Below the pieces are notes generated by a model, which saw only the letters and a program-made list of their open reading frames with translations, was not told the origin of the DNA and made no database searches. Shown here piece by piece: positions 21,901-64,000 of a stretch of DNA of 64,000 nt. The position numbers and the translations under genes were made by a program. Each line of letters begins with the position of its first letter. Positions within the stretch are counted from its first letter, which is position 1. Origin of the DNA: Lunularia cruciata (Eukaryota > Streptophyta > Marchantiopsida > Lunulariales > Lunulariaceae); NCBI GenBank assembly GCA_948567375.1, contig OX419759.1, positions 56,510,593 to 56,574,592 of the forward strand, read 5' to 3'.

Positions 21901-21901
21901 G

Positions 21902-27053: not shown

Positions 27054-27058
27054 AAAAT

Positions 27059-30989: not shown

Positions 30990-32250
30990 AGAAAAAGAAT
31001 GGCAAGCTTTGGGTATGTGTGGATTACAAGAAGCTCAATGTTGTTACCAAGAAGGACTACTACCCATTGCCATTCATTGATGAGATCTTGGAGGAGGTTG
31101 TAGGTCATGAGAGGTAACTGTTTTGGAGATGGTTATAGTGGATATAACCAAATCAAGATTGCACCAGAGCATCAACAACTCACCACATTCACCACACCTT
31201 GGGGAACTTATGCTTTCAAAGTCATGCCTTTTGGGCTTTGCAATGCTCCAACCACATTCCAACGGTTCATGAACAAGGTATTTGAACCTTTCATTGAGAA
31301 ATTTGTGAGAGACTTCATTGATAACTTTTGTGTCTATAGGAGGAAGGAGGAGCACTTTGAGCACCTAATCAAGGTCTTGCAATGCTTAGATGAAGCAAAT
31401 CCATCACTCAACCCAGAGAAGTGCATTTTTTGGTGTGAAGAAGGTCTACTTTTGGAGCACATTGTCTCCAAGGATGGAATAGCAGTTGATCTTGAGTAGG
31501 TGAGGAAAATCTATGACCTTCCATTCCCTTCAATCTTGACAGAGTTATGCCAATTCTTGGGGATGGTTGGATACGATAGGAAGTTCATCTTCTCATTTTC
31601 CAACAAGGCTTATGCATTGACCATCTACATGAAGAAGGTTGTGGATTACATGGTGATTTTGGAGGACAAGGAGGCTCTCAAAGCTTTTGAGGAGCTCAAG
31701 CAATCCCTTGTTGTAGCTCCAATTCTTGCTAAACCTGATTGGAGTAAGCCTTTCATCCTCTACACTGATGCTTCTAATGTAGCTTTAGGATGGACTCTTA
31801 GTCAATTAGACCAAGATGGGCATGATCATCCAATAGCTTATGCTAGTATATAGATGGTTTCAACAGAGAAGAACTACTCTGTCACGGAGAGAGAAGAGTT
31901 GGCAGTGATCTTTGGTCTCAAGAAGTTTAGACACTACTTGATTGGATGGAAAGCTACCATTATCACAAATCACAAGGCTTTGAAGTACATCTTCAACAAG
32001 CCTAATGTTGAAGAGAGACTAGCAAGGTGGATGATACTCTTGTTTGAGTATGACTACACCATTGAGGATAGGCCAGGAACGAAACATGCAAATGCTGATT
32101 TGTTATCTAGGGCCTATGATCATGATGGAGATGAGCCAATGGATGATTCCTTTCCGGATGAGGAGCTCATGAAAATCTCAGTCACTCAAGAGGTTCCAAT
32201 GGAGTACAAAAATAGTGTGGATTTTGTGACAAGAGGTAACTATCCATCCA
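30990..32250 (+). pseudogene. Element B reverse transcriptase and RNase H
   Basis: RT begins with CVDYKKLNVVTKKDYYPLPF. It meets the frameshift GAGAGGTAACTG near 31113, identical to the one in A. It continues with CFGDGYSGYNQIKIAPEHQ and MPFGLCNAPTTFQRFMNK. The catalytic loop is FIDNFCVY (31314-31337), so the second catalytic Asp is Asn. A TAG follows VDLE at 31497. RNase H follows (LYTDASNVALGWTLSQ, TNHKALKYIF) with a TAG at 31851. It is dead on several counts. Confidence 0.9.
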
Positions 32251-33463
32251 GAAGGGATGCATGCTAGGGAGAGGAAGGCCCTTGTAGCAATATCTAAACC
32301 TTACACAATGGTGGAGGATATTCTTTTTCACCAAGGAACAGATGGTCTACTTCGAAGAGCAGTGGGTAAGGAAGAGTCTATCCTACTCAAAAAGGAGTTT
32401 CATGAAGGTTTAGTGTGTGGAGGACACTTTGCAGGAAAGGTGACTGCTTTCAAGATTCTAGATGCTGGTTACCATTGGAGAGGGATTTTCAAGGATTTTC
32501 TTGATTATTGCAAAACTTGTCATGTTTTCTCAAGCTTTTGCTAGAAAGTCTACATCCACTCCACCACTTAGATCAATTCCATTGCTAGGACCTTTTGAGA
32601 AGTGGGGAATTGATTTTCTAGGTCCTCTCAATAGAAGCCCAAGGAGCAATCGATACATTGTGGTAGTTACTAATTACCTTACCAAGTGGGTTGAGGCTAG
32701 ACCCTTGAGGGACAAGAATGAAGATGAAGTTGGTAGATTTCTTTATGAATGCATTATCACTAGATTTGGATGCCCTTTGGAGTTGGTTTCTGATAGAAGA
32801 GAGTTTACAGGAAGCATTGCTATAGCCATGCTACAACATTTCTCTATCACACAAAGAGTAACTACATCCTATAAGCCAAACTCCAATGGCTTGGCAGAGA
32901 GAACCAATCAGACCTTGTGCATGATGTTGGCCAAAGATGCATAAATGGAGAGGGCTAAACATCATTGAGATTGATGCAGTTTTGTGGGAGTATAGGACAA
33001 CCATGAAGACTTCCACTGGATATTCTCCATTTCAATTGGTATATGGTATTGAGTCTACCTTACCTATTCACTTTGATCTTCCTACCTTCCAAATCATTCA
33101 TAGGAGATTGAAGAAAGCACAAGGAGGTGATGCAGAGAAGTCAAGGAAGGAATAACTCATGGAGTTGGAAGAGGCAAGAGAAGTTGCTATGGTTTGAGTG
33201 GAGCAAGCCCAAAGGAAACAAAAGGAGAGCTATGACAAGAGGCAAGGCAAGAAGAAGGTGGAGCCTTTCAAAGAAGGTGATTGGGTAATGTTGCTTGATT
33301 TTATTTGATTCAAGAGAGTGAAAAAGAAGTTTTGCCTAAATACTTTGGACCTTTCATAGTGGAGAAGGTGTGGGCCAATTACACCTATGATCTCAAGGAG
33401 TTGGGAGGAAGACACTTTGATAGGATTAACTATGATAAGTTGAAGATGTACCATAGAAGGTAG
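32251..33463 (+). pseudogene. Element B integrase
   Basis: The zinc domain reads HEGLVCGGHFAGKV and CKTCHV. A frameshift near 32525 leads to the core, KWGIDFLGPLNRSPRSNRYI, then FGCPLELVSDRREF with the second Asp, then NGLAERTNQTLCMMLAKDA with the Glu. TAA follows KDA at 32942. The C-terminus reads TTMKTSTGYSPFQLVYGIES and KVEPFKEGDWVMLL. A single copy of the 77-bp segment duplicated in A is present. Confidence 0.88.
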
Positions 33464-33498
33464 AGAGACCTTCACTTTGAGGACAAAGTGAAAACTCA

Positions 33499-33511
33499 GT
33501 CTGGGGGTAAA
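33499..33511 (+). promoter_or_regulatory. Element B polypurine tract
   Basis: GTCTGGGGGTAAA lies directly before the 3' LTR, after the conserved ACTTTGAGGACAAAGTGAAA stretch. This is the usual place and composition of the plus-strand primer. Confidence 0.7.
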
Positions 33512-34202
33512 TGTAACACCCATTTGTGCATGTGTGTGGTATTGTGAGATTTAGCTTGGTATTACAAGTACTTGAGAAATATTATTTATATAGAGATAAA
33601 GGATGGTTCTACATTAGTCATGATTAACTAGAGTTAGTCATAGCTAAGATAGAAGGGACCTTACTTTAGAGGAAGTGGAAAAGATGAGCACGACTACTTT
33701 GGATTTTAGTGTGTTGACTTGGTATTTTTCCTAGGTGTTTGGCTTTGAGGAAAGAATTGAGAACTCTTGGGCCCACAAACCTTTTTGTTTTGGATTCTTC
33801 TATAGTCCAAGGATAGCCCATGTGAAGGAATCCTTGACTTAGTGGTTGGGTCAAAATAAGATCATATGCTAGTGGAATATGCCCATGTGAATGGATATTC
33901 CTTTCTACTTTTTGACTTTACTTTACTTTTAGTCTAGTAACTTGAGTTATTGCGGTAATTAGTAACTTTGGTACGTAATTATTTCACAAGTATATAAACA
34001 AGGGGTGAGGAGGTACTCATCATCCTTTCGTTTGCAACTATCTCTCTTTGATTGAGTTCTCTAGTGAGCAATGTCTTGAGTCTTGGAGTGTTAGCCTTGG
34101 AGGAGTATGATGGAGTTGGGGTTCCTTGCCTTCTTAGTCCATGGTGCACTACCATAATAGCCATCAGAGGTTCATCCTAAGTGAGAGACAGACCGGCTCA
34201 CA
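33512..34202 (+). repeat. Element B 3' LTR
   Basis: It is 691 bp, from TGTAACACCC to CCGGCTCACA. TATA is TATATAAA at 33991-33998. The following base enters element C RNase H sequence on the other strand. Confidence 0.92.
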
Positions 34203-35165
34203 GACTCAAGACTACTCCAATTGCCATGAACAAAGTTTCCACATATACATGAAAAGGGCGTTCCCAATTTGGAGCCCTCATGATTGGCGCTTCAACTTGT
34301 TTCTTCTTCAATACTTGGAAAGATTCTTCTTGACTTGCTTCCCATAGGTAGTCTTTGGACTTCTTCATGAGCTTTGTAAGGGGTGCATCAAGCACCGTGT
34401 AGTTTGAAACAAAGTGTTTGTAGTATCCGACATGTCCTAAGAAGGCTCTCAGCCCAGGATATTTTTTGGGATTCCAAAGCTGAGATAAATTTTACCTTCT
34501 TAACATCAACTTCAATACCTTGGCTTGACACCCAATGCCCCAAAAGGATTCCCTTCGTCATTGCAAAGAAGGTTTTCTTTGGGTGTAATGACAAACCACC
34601 AAAATGGTACCTTTCAAAAGTTGGGTGAAGGTAATCCAAATGTACATCTCTTTGCCTAAACACACCAAAATCATCAATGAAGACGTCTATAAATTTGCAC
34701 ATGAAATCCTTGAAGATGGCATTCATCATCTGCTGGAAAGTAGCGGGAGCATTACACAACCCAAAGGGCATTTGATTGTAAGCAAAAGTGCCTAAATTGG
34801 TAGTGAATGTAGTTTTATCCCTGTCTTTTTCTCGGATGGATACTTGATTGTACCTTGAAAATCCATCAAGAAACAAGGATGACCGGCTACTTGGTCCAAA
34901 ATTGTATTGATAAAAGGAAAGAGATGATGATCCTTCCTTGTGACTGCATTCAGTTTGCAGAAAGCTTAGCACACTTGAAGCTTTCTTGTTTTCTTCTTCA
35001 GGACAAAGACAATGGGCAAGACCCACTCACTGCTCAAGACAGGAAAGATTATTCCGGCCTCCAAGTGCTTGTTGATTTCATCTTTCACCAAGAGCAAGTA
35101 CTTTGGGTTTGGATGGTACTGTCTTTGCCAAACCGGAATTGCACCTTCAACCATATCAATTTGAT
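34203..35165 (-). pseudogene. Element C reverse transcriptase and truncated RNase H
   Basis: RT entry is EINKHLEAGIIFPVLSSEW, followed by VLPIVFVLKKK. The palm is YNQVSIREKDRDKTTF and AYNQMPFGLCNAPATF. The catalytic loop VFIDDFGVF (about 34662-34688) has both Asp residues. The thumb follows (LSLHPKKTFFAMTKGILLGH). RNase H starts NWERPFHVYVETLFMAIGVV and stops at the B LTR. A TAG and frame changes break the entry region. Confidence 0.85.
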
Positions 35166-36000
35166 GTTCTCCAAATTCTCATAGAATACTGGCATTTGAT
35201 CAATAGACTAGGTGAATACATCCTAGAATTCTAAAAATAAGACATTGTACACTGCCAACTCCTCCAAAGTGACTATCTTTGACATTTTAAAATTTTTTCC
35301 TTTAGTCAAGACAACATCTTGACAATCATTGGGGTTGATGCTTCCTTTGACATGATTCACTCGGCTCAGTCCAAGTTGAGCTGCCATCAAACCCCTTTCC
35401 TCCAAGTCAAGTTCACTGGAGGTGAGGTCATATGGGTCTTTGTCTTTGATGTCTACCTTGTAACATTCCAAGTAATTAACTTGGACTTCGTCTTCACAAT
35501 CTTTTGAGGACAAAGACGATGAGTCTTTGGATTTGTCCTCATCTTCTGATGAACTCGTTTCCCCGAGATGAGGAACCTTCATCTAACTCACGGTCACCAT
35601 CTTTTGGTCTTCAAACAAAATGTCCTTAAACCACAACTTCCGCTAGTGCCAATCAACCACAACTTGGGAATTGTACAACCAAGGTCTTCCGATCAACAAT
35701 GGGTAACCGGTTTTGGTTACTCGTTGCAACACAATGTAATTCAACTTGAAGGCACCCCTCCAATGATCGTGGTAATGTTTGACAGCATGCCCAATGGCCG
35801 TCTCTTGGTTTGGTCTGCAAATTTCAAGACTTGGGGTGTTGGCTCAAACATATGGTACCCTAGCCGATTTGTAGTGTCTTTGGGCATGACGTTCACGTTG
35901 GAACCCAAATCAATAGGTATCAACGTGATCATGCACCCTACAATCTTCCCATCCACTTTGGGAGATCCCAAATCTTCTTGTTCAATTCAATAAATAGCAG
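35166..36000 (-). pseudogene. Element C protease and linker
   Basis: The protease frame (35971-35741) reads GCMITLIPIDLGSNVNVMPK with the catalytic Asp in DLGS. It is followed by RLGYHMFEPTPQVLKFADQT and the flap-like PLGMLSNITTIIGG. The linker toward RT is Asp/Glu/Ser-rich (35582-35223: SSSEDEDKSKDSSSLSSKD). Confidence 0.78.
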
Positions 36001-38140
36001 GCATGTCTTTTTTAGACATCGCCCTTACTTTCTTGATGGTAGAATTTAACTGCTTCTTATACAGCTTTTTGTCTTCCCACAATTGTTTGAATGTGACGTT
36101 TGCACTTGTGGATGCCAAATCTGCTACAATATTGTATTGAGGTATTCCTCCTAATTTCACCTTCTTTGCATTTGTCTTTGGGTTTGAAGTCTCACCCTAT
36201 TCAAATTTGACTTTGGGGCACTTCATGATGGTGATGGGAATACTAGTGGTCTTGACCCAAGGTTCCTTGGGTTGGCCCACCTTGGCTTGGATCAGATTCT
36301 TTACTTTGGATTTGATGTTTGCCTAAAAAATTGGAGGCTTCATCTTTTGTCTCCTCGTCCAAACTCATCTCCTAAGTTTTGAGTACCGCTTCCTTGAGTT
36401 CTTTTTGCAAGGCTTTAGCTTTGGCTTTTGCGAGGATCTTTTCCTCCTTGGCAGAATGAATTGACTTTGGGCACAGTCTCTTTGCCTTTCGTGAGGACAA
36501 AGAGGTCATACTAAGTTCCTTGGGATCACACTTCTTCTTTCTTTCATGTGTCCCAACCTTCAAAATTTTGAGGTCCGGCCATTCACCTTTAGAGGCGGGG
36601 CTTCCTTCTTGAGGTCTCTCCTCCTCAAGTGTTATACAATTTACATTTGTATTCCCTTTTGCCTGAACTGCAACATGCTCAACAAGGGTTTGTACATATT
36701 TTATAGGCGGCTTTGGGTTTAGTGGATGAGGGCACTAGTTGCCCGTATGGCCTGATCCTTTACAATTCCCACATAGGGGAATATATCCGTCTTGGCTCCG
36801 GACAGTTTGGAGACCAATGTCCCATCTAGCCACAATTGTAACATGCTCTAGGTGCAATATTCTTAGGTTAGTTTTGGTTGCTCATTGGTGGTCTTTGTGG
36901 GAGAGTGTCGGGATTATACACCCTTGTTCCAAACCTTGGACCTTGGTACGATGTGCTCGCCTGAGGCAATACCTCCTGAATTTGGTATACTGCCTCCTCT
37001 TCCTCTTCCTAGTTCCATCCAAGAACCCAATCAATTTGCTGCACAGGAAATGCATTATGATTATTGCATTTAGTGTTTGCATGGCCTGACTTGCCACATG
37101 CGGTGTACCATACGTTGGATCTGCCAAATGATGGAGCCTTCCTTTGGTCCTTCATCCCAATCATCTAGATCTTAAAATCCAAAAACTCTTTTATAAGAGC
37201 ATCCAACTTGGTCTTGGCCTTATGTACACTTGTAGTTGGGAGAGTCAATGGTTTCTTGCCTCCATGTCTTTGTATTCTTCTTGGCTTTGATTCTTCTTTG
37301 GATTCCAAAGAAGAACTTGAAGATGTGGAGGATTCCTATGAAGAAAGGGATGACTACGAGAAGCTCTTCTTTTGGGCTTCTTGCCTTTCTTCTCATGGTT
37401 TCTTTGGTTACTGACAAAGTAAGAGTGAGCCACCTCATAGCGGCTGACATGTTTGAGTACCTTCTCCAGGGAAGTTACATTCCTCTCCCTGGCAAAGATC
37501 CGAATCTTTGGTTAAAGTCCTCCCAAGAACTAGGTGATGGCTTGGGCATTGGAATAACCTACCACACCCAATTGCTTTGGGACTCGGTCCAAGAGCATCA
37601 TGAACCACTCAGAGTAGTCTCTCAACTTCTCCTTCTTGCCTTCTAAATTTTTTAGCACCACAAAGATACTTGTGTCATAATTGACCTCCCAAAAGTGCTC
37701 CAAGAAATTGTTTCTCAAGTCCGCCCAATCTGCCGGTACAAACCCATTTACATTAGTGTACCAACTCCATGCCTTCTTTTGGAGCAAACTTGGGAAAATT
37801 TGCAGACAATCTGTAGAATCATATTCCTATTGGCAAAGGAGATGACTTTGAATTCTTCATCAGGATCTTTGTCTTGTTTTATCCCCTTGTACTTTTGATA
37901 GGCATGTCGGGTGACATGTAACAAAGTCATCGTTTCACTCGGGGAGATCAGCTGTGGTAAGTTTGAACTTGATGGAACCAAGGGATTTGTTGGTATTGAC
38001 GTCATGTTGACAGCCCAAGGGTTCCAATTAGTCAAGTTCAAAGTGGGGTATTCTTTGAAAATTACTTCTTCTTTGACTATGTTGACTTCAACCTAAGTAG
38101 AAGTAAGAGGTTCAACACCTTCAAAGTGTTTTTTTAAATT
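36001..38140 (-). pseudogene. Element C gag and nucleocapsid
   Basis: The N-terminal part reads EYPTLNLTNWNPWAVNM. The capsid-like core is KAWSWYTNVNGFVPADWADL with RNNFLEHFWEVN and KLRDYSEWFMMLLDRV (37530-37787). Two zinc knuckles lie near 36740-36850 in separate frames: CYNCG-x-MGHWSPNC and CGNCKGSGHTGN. A Lys-rich region follows toward the protease. The frame is broken many times. Confidence 0.75.
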
Positions 38141-38600
38141 CCTTTAAGACAATCAAGGAATCATGCATAGAAGATGTTGACACTCTTCTTCCGTTAGGAT
38201 TTGTGTTGTCTTTTCCCAAACAAATTTCTTTAGAAATTTGACTTCCTTTATAGCTTTACGGGAAGTTGGTGTATTGGGTCGTCATGAATATGTCTACCCG
38301 TTGGAGTCTTTCTTCTTCTTGGAAGCTAGAGACGGAAAGTAGCCTTGCCACCCGCCTTCATATTTCTTTTGTTCGAGTTCTTGCAAGGCTTCTTGAACTT
38401 CATGAAGAAGTTGAAAGTCCAACACCTCCCATTTGGTTTTGTCAAAAGTGGATTAATTCTTCAAGTGTTCTTGTTCTTCATGATGCAATGTTTGTCTTTG
38501 AACTCTCTCTTCATGTTGTTATCTCAATGAAGACATTCATATTGCTTGGACACTCAATTTTGAAATTGGCTTTGTATTCTTCTACTTCTAAGATTTGTAT
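38141..38600 (-). other. Element C leader
   Basis: Between the primer-binding site and gag I see no gene that I can support. The sequence is Ser/Lys-codon-like in places, but no frame is clear. Confidence 0.5.
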
Positions 38601-38617
38601 CCCCGGCAGCGGTGCCA
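38601..38617 (-). promoter_or_regulatory. Element C primer-binding site (tRNA-Asp-like)
   Basis: On the minus strand this reads TGGCACCGCTGCCGGGG, seven bases after the LTR end. It matches TGGCGCCGTTGCCGGGG, the complement of plant tRNA-Asp, at 15 of 17 positions. It anchors the claim that the adjacent 3.8 kb unit is an LTR. Confidence 0.7.
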
Positions 38618-38624
38618 AAAATCA

Positions 38625-41600
38625 TGTGACAAACCAACAAATATCACTTTTGTGGTAATCAGGTAAGTAAAGTTTGTTCCCACAGAGATACGATTCAAAA
38701 TTGGTCAAACACAAAGTCAAATGTCACAATGTAGTTCTTCTTGGTTTCCTCTTTAATCTCTCTGGTAGAAACCACACCCAAAGGAGAGTAACAAGCATTG
38801 ACTTGTAGTCTTGTCACAACATTTGTCACAGTTAATCACAACTCCATCAAATCTTTCCAAACAATCTTGATTGTAATGATTCAATCTTTCCCAAAAATGG
38901 CACTTCACTACAAAATGACTTTACCCCAGAATTTTGTTTCACCCCTTCACTAAAGGCACAACTTCTTTGATCAAAATTTTTTCACATCAACACTTCACTG
39001 CACTCATAAATGCAGTGCAGTGTTGCACTCACACCAACATTACAATTCCTCTCACATTTGTCAAGGCATTGCTCTAATTGCACTTCACTCAAGATCAAAC
39101 ACACAGAATGAAGATCAAGGCTGTGGAATCCAACATCCAATAAGCACACTGACTTGCACTTCAAAATTCTCCATACACTCATAAACACAAACACAATTTT
39201 GATACTCAAAATTAAGCTCAAGCAACAAGCACTGCTTCACAACACTTTTCTTTATCTATTCTCAAAAATTATGAGCACTAAAAAACATATGACTGTGAAT
39301 GCCACCTTTAAATAAACATAGCAGGTCAATAGTTATCTAACAACTATACCGTTCTACACCTTTCCTAACCTATAGATCCAAAATGATAATGCATTTCTTC
39401 ATATATGCCTCTTTAAATCTCAAATCTGTTACTTCTTTGATCCAATGTAGACCTCTTCTTTAGCTCCCAAACCCGATCCCAAAGTATCCTCACATACTAC
39501 TCTATCCTCAGGTCTATCTGAGTTTACTAAATCCTTCACTATTTATACTACTTCTTTGTTCTGATTTACAATTCCCATCATAGGTAACCTTTCTAATTCT
39601 CTATTTCCCAACTCACTCTACTCTAATATATCCAATGATAACTCCAAAGATATATGTACTCCTATCTCATCTACTTTGGGCTTTGCTCTTACATCCTTCC
39701 AAAGTTTATCTATCGCCAACTTTACTAAATCTAATCTGATTGTGATATTGTCTTCCACTTCCAATATTTTCCTATCTGCATGAGTTCTGAGACAAATCAA
39801 CAAGGCGTTCAAGTCTTTATCCTTCACATTTTTCCTCCTCGTCTCCTGCACTAACAACTTCAATATTGCAATCGTGTTTCTTCAATTCTCACACTAGCTT
39901 TTGTACTTAGCATCACATTCATCTTCATGATGATCTCCTTCAATGGCTTGAGTCTCATCCTTCTCTCACATTCTCGGTCTGCCAACCAATCTTCTCTATA
40001 CATTGATAATTTTGCCTTGAATTTGGCTTTCATAGTCTCCTTCTCCTTCTTTCTGAACAATCTTCTCTTCCAAATTTTGAATTTTCTCCCTTAATTGTTC
40101 TTCTTCTCTATATCTCACTGTCAACTCTCTTTGCCAAAGCTGCTTCTTCTCTTCTACATTCACCATCACTCTATCAAGCTCTTGCTCCTTCTTTGCTAAA
40201 CGTGCCATAGCATGGATGATTTCTAATCTCGAATCAACAAACTGTTGTTTCAAGATTTCATACTCCATTATCTATCTTTCCCTCTCTATGACATTCTTCT
40301 CTATTGCTCTCTCTTTGTTCCCCATTTCCTTCTTTAAGTTTTCAATCACTTGGTTCTGTACTATTGCATCTACTCGTAGTACTTCCTTCTCCTCCTCACC
40401 TTGGATTATACTCTCCTTCAACTTTGAGTTCTCTTTCTCTAATCTCACTAACACCTGCAACACAATCTTCACCTTTGGACACTTCACACTACATCTCTTA
40501 TTTCTTCTCCTCTATTTTCACTAACAACGGGCATACAACATCCCATAGATACTCTACTCCTTCACTATGTTTTACCTTGACTTGTAGGCTTTTCTCCTTC
40601 TTTGCTTCTTCTTCATTGGAAACTCTTCTTCTCAACCGCAATTGCCTTATTGGAAAAGATTCTTCACTCCCCAAACTTCCACTCTCCACTTCTCTTCGTC
40701 TACTCAGTCCCACCTCATACATTGCCTTCTTTCTAGAACAAACTCCCCTTTGAATGGTCATCCTCTTCTCCTTCTTCTCTAGAACTTTGTCTTCTTGTCT
40801 CAGGTTATATTCTTCTGCTATCTCCATCTTTTCTTCTTCCTCCTTTGGTACCGGCTTTGTCTCCATGCCATCTTCACTCTTGCTGCTTGCTTCACCACTC
40901 TGCAATTCCATATTTGATTCTTCCTCCTTCTCCAAGTCTTCTAACTTGTGCTCAGCTTTGCCTTTTGATTCTTTGTCTGACAATGCGATTACCACCAAGT
41001 CCTTCCTCAAGTTCATCTTTCTGGTCTTCCAAGGTCTTGTGACCGCTACTTCTTCTTCTTCTCCTTGTCGACTCCTCTTCTTCAACTTTAGAGTATTCAC
41101 CTTCAATTGCACATTCTGCCCCATCTACATGTAGTACTCATTGTTGCTTCTAATATGCAAAATGTATTGTTGCTCCTCTGCATCAACATCTCTTCTTAAA
41201 TTGGGATGGAAATGCAACACCATCTTGTGTCTCTCTGCCGCATTTAGCAAATTCAATCCTAAATAAAAGTGGGCTGCAAATGGCACAATGTAGTATGGAG
41301 GCAACTTGTCCCACAAGTTCCACACCATTTGTCTTGTATGTTGATGAAAGCACTTTGCCCAATTGATTGGCTCCCCTAGAAACATCTAATGGAAGAACAC
41401 CACTTGATGTTTCATCACATAAGTAGTTTGCTCCGGCTTCAAGATAGCCATCATTGCTCCTATGATGCCTCTCCTCATAGGGTCCTTATAGCTCTCAACT
41501 TTGTTGCCATTCTTTGTGCGCTTTGAAGAAAAGGTATCTCTCACCTCTTAGGTTTCTTCAGCTACTTCTCCTTTCCCAAGAATGTGGCTCCTTGCTCTTC

Positions 41601-42433
41601 CTCCGCCTCTCTTCCAAGTACTAACCTCCAATCCAACTTTGTCATGTTAGCCGGATTTCCTCTCTTACCTTCTTCCTTAGGTCCATCAAGACATTTACTC
41701 TTAATAATCTCGGTCATGAAACTTGGAAAATCAAGGTTCTAGTTCCATGCTAGGAATGTGATCCAAAGCATGCTCAAGACTTCTATTCTTGCAATCACAT
41801 TTAATCTCCGAATCACATGATTTCTCACTACAAATTCTGAGTTCTTCTTCCCACCTCCCATCTTACTCTCTTCTACTCTAGGTTGGTGGCTACTCTTCTG
41901 ATTGATTCCCAGACTAACTCTCCTGATTTCCTCTTGACACACCTGTGCATCTCTTACTACACTTCCTTTTCCACAATCTCCCTCAAGACAACTCCTTGAT
42001 GGCAATGGAAAATTACTTGTCATCTCTTTGTCTCTATCCCAATTCTTATAGTGGTGCGCTTCCTCCGTCTTTCTTCACTTCAAGTTTCTACCAAGAAATC
42101 ACACCTCCTTCATGCTCTTCACTGTCAATTTTCCCCCGCTCATAGGCTAGCTGTTTTTTGTGTGCGGTACCGTCTTGAATGTCCAACCCAAAAGGAAATT
42201 TGTTACATTGTCCTTGCCCTCGGATTGAGCACCCCTGAGCCAAAGTCTCCTTACTTTGGGTTGAATGCTGACAAGGCCAATCCAAGTACTTTGTCTTCTA
42301 ACATAAAGTCACTTTTCTTTGGGTTACAACCCAAAGACACCATTCTTCCCCTTTTGATGTCATACAAGCGCAATACAACTTCATGTGTACATTTCTTCAA
42401 AAATAAGAAAAAACAAAAAATGTGGGTACCACA
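38625..42433 (-). repeat. Element C 5' LTR: 3.8 kb LTR with an internal reading frame
   Basis: On the plus strand it begins TGTGACAAAC next to the primer site and ends GGGTACCACA, so it has TG...CA ends on the element strand. It is 3809 bp long. It is collinear with the solo units F (3781 bp) and G (2902 bp after a deletion of about 0.9 kb), which share both termini. The order on the element strand is: about 400 bp of U3, a weak TATA (CTATAAGA near 42048-42055), a 2.6 kb frame, and about 0.8 kb without coding. LTRs this long with a long sense frame are exceptional. Confidence 0.85.
39440..42023 (-). pseudogene. LTR-encoded protein, copy in element C (broken)
   Basis: It starts at ATG 42023-42021 (MTSNFPLPSRSCLEGD). 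Then comes MGGGKKNSEFVVRNHVIRR, and a TAG at 41741-41739 after ITFLAWN. Homology continues through the Trp-rich domain (WAKCFHQHTRQMVWNLWDKL), the acidic middle (about 40498-41124) and the coiled coil (LEKENSKLKESIIQGEEEKE and onward) to about 39440. At the position of the TAG shared by F and G this copy has CGG (40638-40636). Several frameshifts are present. See the copy at 55852-58426 for the domain description. Confidence 0.75.
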
Positions 42434-44072: not shown

Positions 44073-44751
44073 CTCTAACTGAGACAACAATACTAGGAGA
44101 AAGAGCAACATGTAACCTGCCATCATCACATGCACTCTCACGATATGCAAGTCATCACTTCCTGCCTCACCGGAGAGAAACAAAGGTAGTCTGATTGTTC
44201 ATCATTGTAGCCTCACCACCGAGAGCACACTAGAGCACCAATGCTCTAAATTCAGGGCACCTCATACAATCGTGGTACACAAGTAGGAAGTAGAGAATGG
44301 AGGGGGTCTAATCACAAGAAATCCAAACAAAAACCCTCCATCTCATAAAGCTATACAGGACTAACTATGGTGCCCACATTTTTTGTTTTTTTCCAAAATA
44401 AAGGAGAAGAAGTGTATAGAGAAGTCGGATTGCGCCAGTATGGCCAAAGAAGGCAAAGAAAAGAGTCTTCGGGATGAAACCTGAAGTAAAGTGACTTTGG
44501 GTCATAAGGCAAAGTACTCGGAAATGCCCTGTCAGCATACAACCCAAAGTAAATTGTCTTCGTATCGGGGGGAGCTCAACCCGAGGCGAAGACAGTCTAA
44601 CAACCTTTCGTCGGAGCAAGAAATTCAAGAAGGAGCCATTTAAAAATTGGCAGCCCATACGCGCGAAGGTTGATTGACAGTGACAGGTGCATGCCAGAGG
44701 TGTGATTTCTTGGTAGAAACTTGAAGTAACGAAAGACAAAGAAGCGCAACT

Positions 44752-44759
44752 CTATAAAA
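44752..44759 (+). promoter_or_regulatory. TATA box of giant LTR G
   Basis: CTATAAAA lies 28 bases before the in-frame ATG at 44780 and about 385 bp into the LTR. The same TATA is present in F (58445-58453, minus strand). Confidence 0.6.
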
Positions 44760-44779
44760 ATTGAACTTGCAACGACAAA

Positions 44780-46975
44780 ATGTTGAGTAATTTTCCTTTG
44801 CCGTTGAGAAGTCGTCTTGCAGGTGATTGGGGGAAGGGAAATAGAGTTGGAATTGTGTTAGTGCGCAAGGGAGAAGTCGCGAGAGTGAAATTGAGAGAGA
44901 GTGAGAAAGTAAAAGAGATGGGAGGAGGAAAGAAGAACTCCGAATTCATAGTGAGAAATCATGCAATTCGGAGGTTAGACGTAATAGCAAGGATCAAAGT
45001 CTTGAGCCGACTTTGGATCACATTTCTGGCATGGAACTAGAATGTAAGCTTTCCAGGATTCATGACAGAAATCATCAAGAGTAAGTGTCTCGATGGACCC
45101 AAGGAAGAAGTGAAGAGAGGAAATCCGGCTCGCTGGACAAAGTCGGATTGGAGACTCATACTCGGGAAGGAGGCATGCTCGGGGCAAGGAGCCACGTTCT
45201 TGGGGAAGGGAGAGATAGCTCAAGAGACTCAGGAGGTGAGAGATGCTTTCTCTCACCTCCTGAGTTATCTCAAAGAGAACGAAGAATGGGTATAAGGTTG
45301 AGAGTTACAAGGATCCAGTGAAGAGAGGGATTGTGAGTGCTCTCATGGCAATCTTGAAGCCGGAGAGAACAACTTATGTGATGAAACACCAAGCGGTGTT
45401 CTTCCATAAGTTGTTTGCAGGGGAACCTATTAATTGGGCGAGGTGCTTCCATGGGAGGACGAGACAGATGGTGTGGAATTTGCGGGATAAGTCGTCTCCA
45501 CACTACAGCATGCCGTTTGCAGCACATTTCTACCTTGGGTTGAATTTGCTCAATTTGGTGGAGCAAAACAGAATGGTGTCTCACTTCCATCCCGACTTGA
45601 GAAGAGAAGTCAACATGGAGGAACAGCAGTACATTCTCCAAATCCGAAGCACGGATGATTACTACACGAAGATGGGTAAGAGCGTGGAGATAGAAGCGAG
45701 TACTCCGATGACAAAGAAGAGAGGTTGGCAAGATGAAGCCGAAGACATCAAGAAACCTCGGAAGACGCAGAGAGGCAACCCGAGGCGAGGTATAGTGGTA
45801 ATTGACTCGGAGGATGAAGACTCAGAAGGAGATGCCGAGCTCAAAACTGAAGACTCGGAACACGAGGAGGAGCCTGAGCTAACGCTGTAGAGCGGAGATA
45901 CGAGCAACGATAGTGATGAAGGGGGAGAGATGACATCGGTACCGGTGGCTGACAAATACAAAGAAGAAGAAGTGCAAGCTGAGGAGGAAGCCGAAGACAA
46001 CACACAGTTGGAAGACAAAGTAACTGTGCCCGAGGAAAAGAAGATCGCAGTACAACAAGGAGTTCGCTCAAGACGTAAGGTGAAGTGTGAAGTGGGGCTG
46101 AGTAAAGCGAAGGAAGAGGTAGGAGAAAGCTCGGGAAGTGAGGCATCAATTCCAATACGAAGACTGTAGAGGAGAAGGCGAGTATCTGGTGAAGAAGAGG
46201 TAAGGAAGGAGATTTCTATGCATGAAGAAGTAGGTGCAAGAAATGGAGTGGAGTACCTGCAGGAAATTGTGTGTCTATTGTTGGTGAAGTTGGAGCACAA
46301 GAAGAGGGAGATGCAATTGACATGTCCGGAGGTGACAACTGTGTTGCAGGTATTAGTGCGATTAGAAGAAGAGAACTCGGAGTTGAAGAAGAGTATAACC
46401 CGAGGTGAGGAGGAAAGGGAAGTACTGCAAGCGGAGGCAGTAGAGAGAAGTCAGGTTATTGAAGACCTGAAGAGAGAAGTCAGCTATCAAGAGGATCTTG
46501 TGAGGAAGAGTGACATAGCAAGGGAGAGGCAAGTAGCGGAATATGAGATCTTGAAGCAACAGTTTGCTGATTCACGACTAGAAATTATCCATGTTATGGT
46601 GAGGATAGCAGAGAAAGAACAAGAGCTCGATAGAGTAATGGAGAGTGTGGAAGAGAAGAAGCAACTCTGGCAACGAGAGTTGGCGACACGATATAGAGAA
46701 GAAGAAAGATTACGAGAGTTACTTTGTAATTAGGAGGAGAAGGTTGTACAGAAGGAGAAGGAGAAGGAGACGGTGAAAGTCAAGTTCAAAGCAGAGTTGG
46801 CGATGTACCAAGAGGATTGGCTTGCAGATCAAGAGCGAGAGAGGAAGATGAGATTGGAGCTATTGAAGGAGATTGTCCTCAGGATGAACACGATGTTGAG
46901 TACAAAGGCCAACATTCAAATTGAAGAAATGAGACTGCACGAGTTGAAGTTGTTGGTGTAGGAGACGAGGCAAAG
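44780..46975 (+). pseudogene. LTR-encoded protein, copy in G (broken)
   Basis: It starts at ATG 44780 (MLSNFPLPLRSRLAGDWGKG) and runs in frame through MGGGKKNSEFIVRNHAIRR to TAG at 45038-45040 (TGG in F). A snap-back insertion near 45249 disrupts the next part. The frame resumes at about 45318 with YVMKHQAVFFHKLFAGEP and the Trp-rich domain. A TAG ends the acidic tract at 45888-45890, and another TAG is at 46167-46169 (shared with F). The coiled coil (LEEENSELKKSITRGEEERE) continues to about 46975, where a deletion removes the C-terminus. Confidence 0.8.
45227..45265. repeat. Perfect 17-bp hairpin in G
   Basis: ACTCAGGAGGTGAGAGA (45227-45243), a five-base loop, then its exact reverse complement (45249-45265). 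The right arm has no counterpart in F, so it is a templated insertion. Confidence 0.9.
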
Positions 46976-47272
46976 TCATTTTGCAGTGAAGTGCCATTTT
47001 TGGGAGAGCCTTTATCATCACAATCAAGATTGTTTGGAAAGATTTGATGGAGTTGTGATTATGGAGTGTTAATTCGTGACAAGACTACGAATTAGTGCTT
47101 GTTACTCTCTTCTGGGTGTGGTTTCTACTTGAGAGATTAAAGACACAACCAAGAAGAACTGAAATTGTTACTTTGCTTCATATTTGACCAATTCCGACTC
47201 GTATCTCTGCAGGAACAAACTTTACTTACCTAATTACCGCAAAAGTGATATTTGCCGGGTTGTCACGCTAAC

Positions 47273-49780: not shown

Positions 49781-51200
49781 AAAAGGAGAGTAGATTACAA
49801 CATACCTTATACTTTGCATTGCAATCAAATGATAAAACTTTTCATTATGAAACCGATCATCTACATCCACTTCTAGGTCTTGAGTTTCTAACCTGGACAA
49901 GAAGTCTACATTTGAATGGAAAGCTCCCATCTTTACTTTCATAATGTATGTGAAGTCTTGGAACAAAATCCATCTTGCAATTTGCCCCCAAAAAAATTTG
50001 CCTTCTTTACCAAATGTTGCAAAGCATAATGGTCCACATAGAAGACAAACTTGTATCCCAACAAACAATGGAAACACTTCTTTCATGCATACACCATTTT
50101 GAATGCTTCTCTTTTAGTCATCAAATAGTTCTTTTTTACAACTAAAAGCTATCAGTTGGTGTAATAAATCAGATAGTCTTTCTTACTCTTTTCCCTTTGA
50201 CTTAGGACTACTACAATTGCCATGGATAAAGTGCCCTCATACACATGAAAAGGGACATCCCATTTGGGCCCCTCATAACTTGTGCTTCCACTACTTTCTT
50301 CTTCAACACTTGGAAATCTTCTTTTTGTTCTACTTCCCATAAATAGTCCTTGGACTTCTTCAAAAGCTTTGTTTGAGGTGCAATAAGCAGCACATAATTT
50401 GATACAAACATCTATAGTATCCAACATGTCTCAAGAATGCTCTTAGCTCCTAAATGTTTCTAGAAGATTTTGACATTCATATTACTTTCACCTTCTTGAC
50501 ATCAACTTCAATACCTTGGCTTGAGACCCAATGCTCCAAAAGAATTCCTTCTTTCATTGCAAAGAAGCATTTCTCTAAGTGTAATGGCAAGCTAGCAAAA
50601 CAACACCTTTAAAAAGTTTGGTGAAGGTAATCCAAATGTACTTTTCTTTGGCCAAATGTGCAAAATTCATCAATAAAACTTCCACAAATTTTCATACAAA
50701 ATCTTTAAAAATATCATTCATCATCTATTGGAAAGTAGTGGGAGCATTACACAACCTGAAGGGCATTTAATTCTAAGCAAAGGTGCCCCAATTGGTGGTA
50801 AATATGGTCTTATCCTTATCTTCTTCTTGAATGGATACTTGATTAAAGCTTGAAAATCCATTGAGAAAACTATAATAAGGATGACCAACTTCTTGGTCCA
50901 AAATAGTATAAATAAAAGGAAAAGGATGATGATCATTCCTTGCTTGCATTCAGCTTGCAAAAATCTTAGCACACTTGAATCTTCCTTATCTTCTTTTTTA
51001 AAACAATGACAATGGGAGAAACCCACTCATTGCTCAAGACTAGTAAGATTAATCCAGCTCCTAAGTACTTGTTGATTTCATCTTTCACCACAAGTGAGTA
51101 CTTTGAGTTTAGGCAATATTGTCTCTGCCAAACCGGAATTGCAACTTCAAAAAGATCAATCCAATGTTCCACAAATTGCCAAGGAATTCCTAGCATTTGA
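49780..51200 (-). pseudogene. Element I: reverse transcriptase and RNase H
   Basis: This is a relative of element C. RNase H C-terminus reads FTYIMKVKMGAFHSNVDFLS with a following linker (49772-50086), and its start is KWDVPFHVYEGTLSMAIVVV (50152-50427). RT entry reads DEINKYLGAGLILLVLSNEW (50966-51292). The palm and thumb between are heavily decayed. The left end stops at the junction with K, so integrase is lost. Confidence 0.75.
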
Positions 51201-52011
51201 TCAATAGACCAGGAAAATACATCTTGGTACTCAATAAACAAGGCAATGTATCCTGCCAACTTGTCCAAAGTGATTGTCTTTGAAACTTTCAAAACTTTGC
51301 CTTTGGATAAGACAACATCTTGACATTCATCAAGGTTGATGACTCCTTCAACATGACTGAATCTATATGTCTTGGCTCAACCCAAGTCATATAGAGTTCA
51401 ACCCACTTTCTTCAAAATCATTATCACCTAAGTTGATGTCATATAGGTCTTCATCTTTGACCTCTACCTCATAGCATCCCAAGTTATTGACTTGGACTTC
51501 TTCATCCAAATCTTCGGAAGACAAAGATGGTGAAACTTTGGATTCATCTTTGTCTTTGGACAAACTGGTTTCCTTGAGGTGAAGAACCTTCATCCAACTC
51601 ATTTTCACTAGCTTTTGGTCTTTGGACAAGATGTCCCTTAAACCTCAACTTCTATTGATGCCAATCCACAACAACTTGAGCATTTTACAACCAGGGTCTT
51701 CCAACCAATAGTGGATAACCAATTTTGGTTACTAGTCTAAACATGATGTATTTCAATTTGAAGGACACTCCCCCAATGATTGTGATGTGACATTGGACAA
51801 CATCCCTAAAGGTCATCTCCTAGTCTGGTTTGCAAAGTTCAAAATTTGGGGTGTAGGCTCAAACATGTGATACTCCAATCTATGCAGTGTATCCTTTTTC
51901 ATTACATTCACACCTTAACTTAAGTCAATGGGTATAGATATTATGTACATCCCATGATCTCCTCATCCACTTTAAGAGATCTCAAATCTTCTTGTTTGAT
52001 ACGGTTTATGT
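51201..52011 (-). pseudogene. Element I: protease and acidic linker
   Basis: The segment 51629-51387 is the acidic linker (SLSKDKDESKVSPSLSSED), matching that of C. The protease region near 51760-51960 reads MFEPTPQILNFANQTRR and IDL, with the active site decayed. It is broken at 52011 by the J insertion. Confidence 0.65.
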
Positions 52012-54589: not shown

Positions 54590-55058
54590 TTGCTAGTGAA
54601 GCTTCAAACTCATGGATAGCCAATTGTGCATTCTGGAGATGAGAAAGAGGTTCCCATGTGGCATCATGAAGGGGATACCCTTTCCAAAGGACCTTGTACT
54701 TAGTATGTCATTGATGGTCTCATTGAATGTAGCGACATGCAAGGATACAATCAACTTTGTACTCCTCATGATCATTGATAGGAAGAGGAGGACGGGGAAG
54801 TTGGACTCAAGAGGAAAAAGAAGAGGGGCTAGGAACAAAGAGTTTCAACTTGGAAATATGAAAGACAGGATAGACATGCATATGACAAAGCAAGGCAAAT
54901 TGATAAGCAACATGAGAGACAATTTGGGTGACATCAAAGGGTCCTATCCAATTAGTGGCAAGTTTGCAAACTTGGGTATCAAGTGGGAGGGGTAGGTTAC
55001 TAGAGGATAGTATGAATTTATCACCAACTTCCAAGGTAAGATCACAACGATGGTCTGC
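54590..55058 (-). pseudogene. Element H integrase C-terminus and chromodomain
   Basis: From right to left, VGDKFILSSSNLPL is followed by the GPF module (TNWIGPFDVTQIVSHVAYQF, then HVYPVFHISKLKLF). The chromodomain follows: EEYKVDCILACRYIQ, then HTKYKVLWKGYPLHDATWEP near 54640-54760. The second part has the Trp and the WEP signature of chromodomains that bind methylated histone H3. Two TGA codons interrupt it and one TGA separates it from the GPF module. In chromoviruses this domain steers integration into heterochromatin. Confidence 0.85.
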
Positions 55059-55851
55059 TGTGACAACCCGGCAAATATCACTTTTGCGGTAATCGGGTAA
55101 GTAAAGTTTGTTCCCGCAGAGATACGAGTCTGAAATGTCCAAATACGAAGCAAAGTAACAATTTTAGTTCTTCTTGGTTGCGTCTTTAATCTCTCAGGTA
55201 GAAACCACACCCAGAAGAGAGTAACAAGCACTGATTCGCAGTCTTGTCACAAATTCACACTCCTTAATCACAACTCCATCAAATCTTTCCAAACAATCTT
55301 GATTGTGATGATTCAGGCTCTCCCGAAAATGGCACTTCACTGCAAAACGACTTCGTCTCAAAATTGTGTTCCACCCCTCCACTGAAGGCACAACTTCCTT
55401 GATTGAAATTGCTTCACATCAACTTTGCACTGCACTCCAAAATGTAGAATACTACCAACACTACAATTCCTCTCAGATCTGTCAAGGCATTGCTCCGATT
55501 GCACTTCACTCAGGATCAAACACACAGAATGAAGATCAAGGCTATGGAATCCAACATCCAACAAGCACTCTGACTTGCACTTTGAATTTTTCCAAACATT
55601 CACAAACACAAGTACAACATTGATACTCGGAATCAAGCTCAAGCGACGAGCACTATTTCACAGCACTTCGCTTTATCTATTCTCAGAAATAATGAGTACT
55701 GAACAACATGATATTGCGAATGTCACTCTTAAGTAGTGAATCAATCGGCAATTCTAACAACTATACCGTTCTACCACAACTATTCTAACTTGCAGATCCG
55801 AAATGACAATGCACCTCTTCATATCTGCCCCTTCAAATCTCAAATCGGTTA

Positions 55852-58426
55852 CTAATCCAATCCAATGTCTTCTTCTTCCTCGGCTTTCAAACCTGAACCC
55901 GAAGTAATCTTACTTCCTACTACTCTTTCCTCGGGTTTCACATCTCCTACATCTTCTACCAGATCCAGCAATTCTCTTTCCTGATCTGAAATTGCACTAG
56001 TGGGTAATCTATCTAACTCTTCATCCTTCAACCCACTCTTCTCTAATGTCTCTGAGGGCAACTCCGAAGACATTTGGATTCCTATGTTATCTACTTCAGG
56101 TTTTGCCTTAACATCCTGCCGAAGCTTTTCTAACTCTATTTTCACTAAGTCTAATCTAATTGAAATATTGTCTTCTACTTCTAAGATCTTCCTGTCTACA
56201 CGAGTTCTGAGACTAATTAACAAGGCATTCAAATCAGTGTCCTTCGCTTGTCTTCGCCTCGTCTCCTGCACCAACAACTTCAACTCGTGCAGTCGCGCTT
56301 CTTCAATTCGAACGTTGGCTTCTGTACTTAACATTGCGTTCACTCTGAGGACTATTTCCTTCAATGGCTCCAATCTTGTCTTTTGTTCTCGTTCCTGATC
56401 TGCAAGCCATTCCTCTTTGTACATCGCCAATTCTTCTTTGAACTCGGCCTTCACCGCCTCCTTCTCTTTCTCCTTCTGTACAACTTTCTCTTCCTGATTA
56501 CGAAGTAATTCTCGTAATCTCTCTTCTTCTCTATACCGCACAGACAACTCTCTTTGCCAGAGCTGCTTCTTCTCCTCCATACTCTCCATTAGTCGATCGA
56601 GCTCTTGGTCCTTTGATGCTACCCTCGCCATAGCATGGATAAGCTCTACTCTTGAATCAGCAAATTGCTGCTTCAAGATTTTGTGCTCCGCTACCTATCT
56701 CTCCCTTGCGATGTCACTCTTCCTCGCAAGATCCTCTCGATAACTCACTTCTCTCTTTAGGTCTTCGATTACCTGACTTCTCTCTACTGCTTCTGCTCGC
56801 AATACTTCTCTCTCTTCCTCACCTCGGGTTACACTCTTCTTCAACTCCGAGTTCTCTTCTTCTAATCTTGATAAGACCTGCAAAACAGTCTTCACCTCTG
56901 GACAAGTAGACTGCATCTCCTTCTTCTTCTGTTCCAACTTCACCAACAGCGGGCACACTACTTCTTGCAGGTAATCTACTCCATTACTGGCAACTTCTTC
57001 CTCCCGTGGAGTAGTCTCTCTTCTCTCTTTGTGTTCTCCCGATACTCACCTTCTTCTCTAGAGTCTTCGTATTAGAATCGACGCCTCACTACTCGAGCTT
57101 TCTTCTACCTCTTCCTTCACTCTACTCGGCCCCGCTTCACACTTCACCTTACATCTTGAGCGAACTCCTCGCTGTACTGCGATCTTCTTCTCCTCTAGCA
57201 CCGGTACTTTGTCTTCCAGTGCCGCATTGTCTTCGGCTTCTACTTCGGCTTGCACTTCTTCTTCATATTCTTCAGCCGCTGGTGCCGAGATCATTTCTCC
57301 ACCGTCTTCACTGTCACTGCTAGTATCTCCACTCTGCAGTGTCAGCTCAGGTTCCTCCTCACGTTCCAAGTCCTCTGTTTTGAGCTCGGCTTCTCCTTCT
57401 GAGTCTTCATCTTCTGACTCAATCACCACCATCCCTCGCCTCGGGTTATTTTTCTGCATCTTCCGAGGTTTCTTGTTTTCTTCGGCTTCTGCTTGCCGAT
57501 TTCTCTTCTTCGTCGGGGTACTTACCATGACCTCCACGTTTTTCCCTGTCTTCGCATAGTAGTCGTCCGTGCTCCGGATTTGGAGAATGTATTGCTGCTC
57601 CTCCGCGTCGACTTCTCTTCTCAAGTCAGGATGGAAATGAGACACCATTCTATTGTGCTCCGCCAAATTGAGCAAATTCAACCCGAGGTAGAAATGTGCT
57701 ACAAATGGTATGATGTAGTGTGGAGGCAGCTTATCCCATAGATTCCACACCATCTGCCTCGTTCTCTCGTGAAAGCACCTTGCCCAATTGATCGGTTCTC
57801 CTGCAAATAACTTGTGAAAGAACACCGCTTGGTGTTTCATCACATAAGTGGTTCTCTCCGGCTTCAAGATGGCCATTAGTGCACTCACAATTCCTCTCCT
57901 CATAGGGTCTTTGTAGCTCTCAACTTTGTACCCATTCTTTGTTCTCTTTGATGAGAAGGCATCTCTCACCTCCTGCGTTTCTTGGGCTATCTCTCCTTTC
58001 CCCAAGAACGTGGCTCCCTGCTCCAAACCCGCCTCCTTCCTGAGTGCGAGTCTCCAATCCGACTTTGTCCAGCGAGCCGGATTTCCTCTCTTCCCTTCTT
58101 CCTCGGGACCATCGAGACATTTACTCTCGATGATTTCTGTCATGAATCCTGGAAAACTTACGTTCCAATTCCATGCCAGAAAAGTGATCTGAAGTCGGTT
58201 CAAGACTTCGATCCTTGCTACTACATCTATTCTCCGAATCGCATGATTTCTCACTGCAAATTCAGAGTTTTTCTTCCCTCCTCCCATCTCTCCTGCTTTC
58301 TTATTGTCTCTTGATTTCTCTCTCGCGACTTCTCCCTTGCGCACTAACCCAAGAAACAACTCTATTTCCCTTTCCCCGATCACCTGCAAGACAACTTCTC
58401 AACGGCAAAGGAAAATTGCTCGACAT
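55852..58426 (-). pseudogene. LTR-encoded protein, best copy (in F): Trp-rich domain, acidic tract, coiled coil
   Basis: The frame runs from ATG 58426-58424 (MSSNFPLPLRSCLAG; a small indel follows) or ATG 58287-58285 (MGGGKKNSEFAVRNHAIRR) to TAG 55854-55852, about 850-860 codons. A 430-codon part is open to TAG 57060-57058. Domains: a basic N-terminus; a conserved domain with WTKSDWRLAL, YVMKHQAVFFHKLFAGEP and WARCFHERTRQMVWNLWDKL; an acidic Ser/Glu tract (ESEDEDSEGEAELKTED); and after the stop, a coiled coil of about 370 codons rich in Glu, Arg and Leu (LERLEEENSELKK-like heptads, EEKKQLWQRELSVRYREEER). I do not recognise it. The pattern of a HxxxFFHKLFxGEPINWA helix faintly recalls plant transposon-associated domains. 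F keeps TGG where C and G have TAG. Confidence 0.8.
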
Positions 58427-58444
58427 TTTGTCATTGCAGTTTCG

Positions 58445-58453
58445 ATTTTTATA
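58445..58453 (-). promoter_or_regulatory. TATA box of giant LTR F
   Basis: CTATAAAAA on the minus strand lies about 20-30 bases before the first ATG of the LTR frame, as in G. It suggests that the frame is transcribed from within the LTR, with a very short leader. Confidence 0.55.
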
Positions 58454-58844
58454 GAGTTGCACTTCTTTGTCTTCTGTTGCTTTGAGTTTCTACCGAGAAA
58501 TCAAACCTCCTGCATGCACCTGTCACTGTCAATCAACCTTCTCGGGTATGAGCCGCCAGTTTTGAAACGGCCCCTTCTTGAATTTCTCGCCCCGACGAAA
58601 GGTTGTTAGACTTTCTTCACCTCGGGTTGAGCTCCCCCGATCCGAAGACAATTTACTTCGTATTGTATGCTGACACTGCATTTCCGAGTACTTTGCCTTA
58701 TGACCCGGAGTCACTTTACTTCGGGTTTCATCCCGAAGACAATTTTCTTTGCCTTCTTCAGCCATACAGGCGCAATCCGACTTCTCTATACACTTCTTCT
58801 CCTTTGTTTTGAAAAAAAAAAAAAAATGTGGGCACCACATCCGC

Positions 58845-63413: not shown

Positions 63414-64000
63414 AATATTTCATGCAATTGCTCCTCCTCCCAATGTCTATTGTCAACTCTTGCTGCCATGCCTGATCCTTCTCTATTGCCTTCAACTTCA
63501 ATCACTCTAAATCTTGCTCCATCATAACTCCTATTGCCTTAAGATGAATTGCTTCTAGGTGTGCATCTTTCAACTTTTTTAGTCTTTCAAACACCATCAT
63601 TTGCACTCTCAATTCTTATTCTTGACATTCAATAATGTTGCCACACTTCTCATGACTCACTTGCAGATTCTCAAAACTCTGCTTCCAAAGTATAGCATCA
63701 ACCCAAAGTACTTTGGCTTCCTCTTCTCCTTGGGTCAACTTCTCCTTCAACTCTTTGAGACTTCTGCACTTAGATATTGCACTACATGCAACTCATTCTT
63801 CACCTCCGGATAGGCTTTATTCATTTCTTTCTTCTTCCTCTTCAATTGCAACAATAGACACATAATGTTTGATAGATACTCTACTCCACTACACTCTTCC
63901 GCTTCAATGTCTTTGCATTCCTCAGCTTTGGGCAGTGCTTCTTTGGCAAGAGCTTACCCTAAAGCCTTGATCTTCTTACCATCAAGATGACCTCTTCCAA
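63414..64000 (-). pseudogene. Fragment of a fourth giant LTR (coiled-coil part of its frame), probably 5' LTR of element I
   Basis: On the minus strand this decayed frame reads SGVEYLSNIMCLLLQLKRKK, then EMNKAYPEVKNELHVV, and near the left end WQQELTIDIG. It lines up with the middle of the LTR-encoded protein of F and G (NGVEYLQEIVCLLLVKLEHK ... LWQRELATRYREE). It is on the strand and side expected for the 5' LTR of element I, into which H is inserted. It is clearly more diverged than C, F and G. It runs off the window. Confidence 0.65.

Follow-up and report, generated by a model that had tools for sequence, protein, structure and literature searches.

A Ty3/gypsy family of Lunularia cruciata whose 3.8-kb long terminal repeats carry a conserved sense reading frame

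Long terminal repeats (LTRs) are generally treated as regulatory ends. In mouse mammary tumour virus (MMTV), by contrast, the sag gene is a protein gene within the retroviral LTR, located in the unique 3' region (U3) and present in two copies per provirus. Here, a stretch of 64,000 nucleotides from Lunularia cruciata is described (contig OX419759.1, positions 56,510,593 to 56,574,592; the window in the following), in which the LTR of a truncated Ty3/gypsy retrotransposon, element C, and two solo copies of the same repeat, F and G, contain a long frame in sense orientation to gag-pol, called the LTR gene below. Very probably, these copies belong to a large, formerly active Ty3/gypsy family with LTRs of 3.7-3.8 kb holding a sense gene for an accessory protein that would help the element in trans. 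MMTV sag is the nearest analogue in principle but differs from the C-family gene, which is much longer, encodes another protein and resides in a gypsy element of a plant-type host.

Large LTRs (up to ~5 kb) and extra frames are known from plant Ty3/gypsy elements (PMC6317226, PMC11963269, PMC3485330, PMC1142308). Athila, Calypso and Diaspora, which form part of the OTA superclade, share long LTRs and the gypsy order of gag and pol with the C family; in the scanned pieces of one complete family member, L047, neither a chromodomain nor a second RNase H was found. The extra frames of Athila, Calypso and Diaspora are described in the internal region, whereas that of the C family lies inside the LTR. 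In Diaspora, 5 bp separate the LTR from the primer site, which matches tRNA-Asp (PMC1142308). The rice elements Retrosat2, RIRE3 and RIRE8 likewise have large LTRs (~3 kb) and an extra frame 5' of gag-pol, ORF0, which was not found outside grasses (PMC3485330). The description of ORF0 puts it upstream of ORF1 and not in the LTR, whereas in the C family the gene is part of the repeat itself, ahead of the primer site, and for this reason occurs twice. The extra or additional open reading frames (eORFs, aORFs) of Ogre, Retand (TRP28), Athila (ORF-1) and SIRE are also accessory frames of unknown function, but in the descriptions compared here they flank the polyprotein on its 5' or 3' side and do not, as in the C family, lie inside the LTR. 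A survey reports extra frames at these two places without stating in the same passages that LTRs were excluded, so that frames in LTRs may sit among its unassigned eORFs (PMC6317226). In an aORF review a term search for "in", "within" or "inside the LTR" gave no occurrence (PMC7264820), and no LTR-coded plant gene is described in the titles or abstract openings found by our literature search.

Is the 3.8-kb unit really an LTR? The source assembly (566 Mb, containing the window) was searched, and the best 38 of 12901 F-type candidates, full-length or nearly so and including F, were all read with their flanks. The initial annotation of the window had suggested counting solo against paired copies, and among these 38 there are 21 solo LTRs with a target duplication and 14 attached LTRs, namely 7 5' LTRs followed by a primer site and 7 3' LTRs preceded by a polypurine tract, while 3 are neither. 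Nineteen of the solo duplications match at 5/5 and two at 4/5 positions; as a control, the outer flanks of each of the 14 attached copies were compared in the same way, and in no case did they match at 5/5. The primer sites agree at 15-18 of 18 bases and keep the same 7-base spacing, and the polypurine tracts are G-rich and end in GAGGGAGGGGGTA. Moreover, seven pairs of neighbouring copies on the same strand were examined, of which five are elements with two LTRs and perfect 5-bp duplications: two complete elements (C8:40361899-40376265, CTAGA at both sides; C6:22785747-22799469, CAAGT at both sides) and three more with AAAAT, TCTGT and GTAGT, the last two each with one inner junction not captured. 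The sixth pair has primer site and polypurine tract, its outer 5' end not being captured, and the seventh (C7) is no element. The 3.8-kb unit is an LTR, and gag-pol lies between two such LTRs. The proposal of the initial annotation, a Ty3/gypsy family with a 3.8-kb LTR holding a sense gene, is thus borne out by the paired elements together with the coding signal discussed below. It had rested on the position of C beside a primer site (TGGCACCGCTGCCGGGGA, at a distance of 7 nt) and on the collinearity of C with F and G, both with target duplications (4/5 in F; perfect in G, which has a 921-bp deletion), and these observations hold, as does the expected coincidence of the unit's ends with primer site and polypurine tract. 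The predicted two gene copies per full element are present in the five paired elements, and the 3.8-kb length of both their LTRs excludes for these five what would have spoken against the proposal, short LTRs in full elements.

Seen from the window alone, the unit might be taken for an independent mobile element or gene that had inserted next to a primer site, since there only C adjoins such a site and no copy has a partner. This explanation, whose probability we regard as negligible, is already refuted by the five elements with two units and perfect outer duplications. Genome-wide, there are furthermore 1157 junctions between unit and primer site (reversed control, 0), the polypurine tract stands exactly before 7 of the 38 copies, and the two ends of the unit share no direct repeat, on which ground the idea of a 3.8-kb unit with short LTRs of its own was also rejected. 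LTR 3' ends number 9237 at two mismatches or fewer (reversed control pattern, 0 matches); assuming one partner LTR per junction, about three quarters of the LTR ends would lie outside paired elements, the two patterns being of unequal sensitivity. Among the best 38 of 18159 C-type candidates, 14 places besides C match it at 82-86%, missing at most 29 bases of C.

Three further observations concern these repeats. Another same-strand LTR pair, outside the seven examined, lies at C2:65.87/65.88 Mb. An LTR is nested in an LTR of the same family at G000:C8:447387-454885 and at G000:C11:60796521-60803597.

The internal regions of the two complete elements measure 6.9 kb (C8) and 6.2 kb (C6), and both encode Ty3/gypsy gag-pol. 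In L047, the CCHC, reverse transcriptase (RT), RNase H and integrase zinc-binding domains score above the Pfam curated cut-offs in gypsy order, and the capsid and rve matches fall below the cut-off; the pol order RT - RNase H - integrase is found, with integrase called by its zinc-binding domain. A chromodomain was not detected at E<=0.01 in the C-terminal pol piece of this one element, nor an additional RNase H, as only RT_RNaseH and RT_RNaseH_2 matched in six L047 pieces, the protease-RT stretch being outside the scan. In element C, Pfam matches to Retrotrans_gag (4e-7), RVT_1 (1e-14) and RT_RNaseH_2 (4e-7) were obtained, and its internal region is 80.4% identical over 4417 nt to that of L047, a complete F-type element, which places C in the same family. 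The primer site TGGCACCGCTGCCGGGGA is putatively tRNA-Asp-like, a type presumably compatible with the Athila clade; a tRNA scan of the 64-kb window found no tRNA.

Is the long frame a gene? Comparison of the copies shows that the frame evolved under purifying selection during the divergence of copies and subfamilies. 1) Between F and C, substitutions fall on 337 of 792 third positions but on 358 of 1589 first and second positions of the frame (P 3e-23), as compared with 92 of 396 and 200 of 789 in the flanks (P 0.43), where the phases are equal; this codon-position signal is limited to the frame of the LTR gene, and the periodicity starts and stops with it. 2) The ratio of nonsynonymous to synonymous divergence (dN/dS) is 0.155 for F-C, 0.153 for F-G and 0.132 for C-G, as against 0.82-1.13 in the two wrong frames. 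Across the 38 F-type copies mean pairwise dN is 0.052 and dS 0.190 (ratio of means 0.27), and not one of the 703 pairs has dN>=dS. 3) A single private indel is found in the 2.4-kb frame (30 expected) versus 9 in the 0.5-kb flank and 7 in the 0.8-kb flank, a count that omits the poly-T start with 4 more indels; private indels are 30 times rarer inside the frame than in the flanks. 4) The aligned codons contain 3 stops in F, 9 in C and 6 in G, where 54-66 would be expected at random. Since the strand is purine-rich and E, K and R make up much of the protein, the long frame could be thought a compositional accident of A+G-rich LTR sequence, but the rarity of stops, the periodicity bounded by the frame and the depletion of indels render such an accident vanishingly improbable. 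5) Two divergent LTRs, L068 and L070, retain the gene, both with a third-position excess; block by block, the protein of L068 is 64-74% and that of L070 41-65% identical.

A number of points weigh against the picture of a selected gene that serves the element. The two LTRs of one element, which were identical at insertion, already show dN/dS values of 0.49 and 0.46, so that mutation bias accounts for part of the low ratios; measured against this baseline of ~0.47, which comes from only two LTR pairs, the raw dN/dS values and the absence of pairs with dN>=dS overstate selection, and synonymous sites between C and F are near saturation. When the post-insertion part is subtracted, the divergence between source elements comes, as a rough estimate from two LTR pairs, to ~0.015/0.11 = 0.13, and dN/dS is under the neutral baseline. 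The scored copies are the best-scoring ones and hence biased towards well-kept copies. Of the 56 full-length copies scored by protein, 54 contain stops, making the case for a gene one of past constraint. Of three LTR ends sampled for absence of a mid-gene word, one consists of only the last kilobase of the LTR, the other two being L068 and L070. This word has 4544 matches genome-wide and is present in 36 of the 38 F-type copies; as it misses divergent copies, the proportion of LTRs with the gene cannot be read from 4544 versus 9237. In the searches of protein databases, Pfam and PDB described below, no homologue or domain points to a function. Finally, the expression of the LTR gene and its help to the element in trans are inferred.

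How does the LTR gene compare with gag-pol of the same elements? Between the two complete elements (internal regions L046 and L047), gag-pol has a dN/dS of 0.36 and the LTR gene one of 0.23-0.30, ratios taken at unequal depth (dS 0.12 in gag-pol vs 0.18-0.22 in the LTR gene), which also tempers the case; we read them as suggesting comparable constraint on both. A host gene or foreign sequence that was captured once by the LTR and is carried as passive cargo without function for the element would be in line with the missing database relatives and with the broken state of most examined copies. It would hardly account for gag-pol-like constraint in the same elements or for a gene kept in divergent LTRs at 41-65% protein identity, and we consider it highly improbable.

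At synonymous sites the LTR gene has diverged more than gag-pol (C-F 1.48 vs C-L047 0.66; the two complete elements 0.18-0.22 vs 0.12), an excess that may be due to recombination between subfamilies or to stronger mutation of LTRs. Near one end of contig C1 (G000:C1:1-1,700,000), 38 exact LTR 3' ends were counted in 1.66 Mb as compared with 7 matches of the mid-gene word, which suggests local enrichment in divergent or truncated LTRs. In L069 (G000:C1:1044044-1048044), two LTR 3' ends of the same orientation lie 2.5 kb apart, each comprising about the last kilobase of the LTR; they are truncated derivatives without most of the LTR gene.

The initial annotation had also placed a TATA box just 5' of a frame of 850-860 codons. 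TATAAA is indeed found at LTR base 386 in all 38 F-type copies, and the length of the frame was right, although the frame is ancestral and not open in the window. From a conserved MGGG, whose start codon is at LTR base 552 with the TATA box 166 bp before it, the gene has 811 codons. An upstream ATG 27 bases after the TATA box is in frame in 34 of the 38 copies and open to the gene in 33 (857 codons), and it is out of frame in F itself. The start codon is uncertain because there is no codon signal in the stretch from the upstream ATG to the MGGG codon. Downstream of the gene, the last 0.8 kb of the LTR is non-coding and the best conserved part, with 11% differences between F and L068 (gene 26%, upstream 27%) and 14% between F and L070 (gene 43%, upstream 51%), as would be expected if it served in packaging or strand transfer. 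Such conservation of a non-coding end is also what R-U5 would show, R and U5 being the terminal redundancy and the unique 5' region. It could therefore be imagined that the LTR gene lies in U3, as sag does in MMTV, and not in R/U5 as the first frame of the genomic RNA, this RNA starting 3' of the gene in the conserved last 0.6-0.8 kb. Against this arrangement stand the TATAAA 5' of the gene in all 38 F-type copies and the lack of a clear second TATA box 3' of it; we rate it as a serious contender that falls slightly short of an even chance. A clear poly(A) signal was not found in the LTR sequence either.

Across the 811 codons, 37 of the 38 F-type copies have no frameshift, only one is free of stops, and the median is 4 stops; CAG>TAG, CGA>TGA and TGG>TAG make up 105 of the 160 stops. 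A protein search extended the sample to the best 56 of 34917 candidates, of which 43 were new (3 of them read whole, 8 others at junctions). Two of the 56 full-length copies are open; the first belongs to a 3' LTR, and the second is L050, a solo LTR with a GTAGT duplication. Solo LTRs contain on average 4.05 stops (n=21) and attached LTRs 4.36 (n=14; Mann-Whitney P 0.90), and given this equality, selection acting on elements as they replicate accounts for the conservation. The earlier suggestion that solo LTRs keep a promoter-gene unit is supported in that promoter box and gene are retained, with stops in most copies; its extension, persistence of the gene independently of gag-pol, is not supported. 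That solo LTRs are maintained by selection as free-standing genes is permitted by their structure, and the frame of L050 is fully open, but with stops per copy the same in solo and attached LTRs it appears quite improbable.

In the LTR protein, the N-terminal ~250 residues are conserved; they are followed by a variable middle, in which a basic run precedes a strongly acidic one, and by a charged tail that is poor in proline and glycine and has a heptad-like stretch. Only at residues 400-520 is a 3.5-residue period the strongest. A candidate nuclear signal, noticed by eye, may be present in a basic cluster near residues 258-285. Three pieces of the protein had no Pfam match at E<=1. In a second Pfam search, no family, and thus neither plant mobile domain, Transposase_28 nor Athila ORF-1, was listed for the whole read-through protein P0001 at E up to 10 by a program that drops most weak matches, and a piece from G gave one weak match to UBM (E 0.27). 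A PDB search gave no relative, and two protein-database searches gave none at E<=0.01 among the 8000 best candidates scored and none at E<=0.1 among 1098 candidates. In a control search with an RT piece of C, 2536 of 2626 candidates matched, and since some of these are named as plants, plant sequences are present in the database. A duplicated gag was considered as origin and rejected, the best protein match to the internal regions of L046 and L047 being no better than E 4.9.

How could such a family operate? If the LTR gene does encode an accessory protein of the element, the TATA box would drive a transcript from the LTR in which the gene is the first long frame, and the protein would act in trans on behalf of the element, with nucleus or particle as the most likely site. 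Reverse transcription copies one LTR version to both ends and thereby creates two gene copies per insertion. Recombination between the two LTRs removes gag-pol and leaves promoter box and gene in a solo LTR, and after insertion the copies decay, mainly by stops of the C-to-T type. In a more far-reaching version, the LTR gene could be a trans-acting factor, acting for example in anti-silencing or in transcription from its own LTR, with solo LTRs as a standing reservoir that aids surviving elements; we hold this to be unlikely. Were it true, a regulator would be kept in the one part of the element that recombination does not remove. With a selected 811-codon gene inside an LTR that has thousands of ends in the genome, coding sequence is mixed with non-coding sequence whenever genes are counted, LTRs dated or solo LTRs analysed in such families. 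The C family is a plant-type counterpart to the coding LTR of retroviruses, and on it one can test directly if working genes may be left by a retrotransposon that has lost gag-pol.

In the window (Table 1), C and F align end to end over 3.88 kb at 73% identity. Read on the plus strand, the C unit begins with TGTGACA and ends with CCACA, element C itself being on the minus strand. Self-comparison of the window aligns G with F in two blocks of 84 and 93% identity and reveals no 3' LTR of element C; the window by itself lacks this second LTR because another LTR element interrupts C at 34203. In the fourth, older copy, LTR sequence runs past the right window edge, and the nucleotides out there match the terminal 1.3 kb of the LTR at 75%.

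Table 1. Positions of C-family features in the 64-kb window
Feature	Position	Strand	Basis and remarks
Element C, 5' LTR with LTR gene	38625..42433	-	3809 bp; end-to-end match with F; ends and primer site
Primer binding site TGGCACCGCTGCCGGGGA	38600..38617	-	Sequence; 7 nt from C LTR end
Element C, internal region (gag, reverse transcriptase, RNase H start)	34203..38599	-	Pfam matches; truncated at 34203
LTR gene relic in C	39435..41861	-	Codons aligned with those of F and G; 9 stops among them, also several frameshifts
TATA-like box TATAAG of C LTR	42045..42050	-	Alignment of C, F and G
F, solo LTR with LTR gene	55059..58839	-	3781 bp; TG..CA ends and target duplication
LTR gene in F	55852..58287	-	811 codons and stop; 3 in-frame stops; codon-position signal
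TATA box TATAAA of F LTR	58448..58453	-	TATAAA at the same place in 38/38 F-type copies
F target duplication, left copy tctgc	55054..55058	n/a	4/5 match to tccgc
F target duplication, right copy tccgc	58840..58844	n/a	4/5 match to tctgc
G, solo LTR	44366..47267	+	921-bp internal deletion takes away gene end; perfect 5-bp duplication
LTR gene relic in G	44918..46973	+	6 stops among the aligned codons; one insertion shifts the frame
G target duplication, left copy CTAAC	44361..44365	n/a	Perfect match to right copy
G target duplication, right copy CTAAC	47268..47272	n/a	Perfect match to left copy
Fourth, older LTR copy, decayed gene fragment	63448..63944	-	tblastn E 1.8e-6, low-complexity filter off

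The interrupting LTR element forms an inverted pair of ~6-kb arms, 19851-26010 and 28141-34203, which are 93% identical, and copies of its 0.7-kb repeat are found at 18952-19645, 19852-20542, 27058-27749 and 33508-34202. A gag-pol relic, E, at 50199-54145 is 68-76% identical to C over the matched pieces; an LTR of its own was not seen in the self-comparison of the window, and F lies ~0.9 kb beyond its 5' side.

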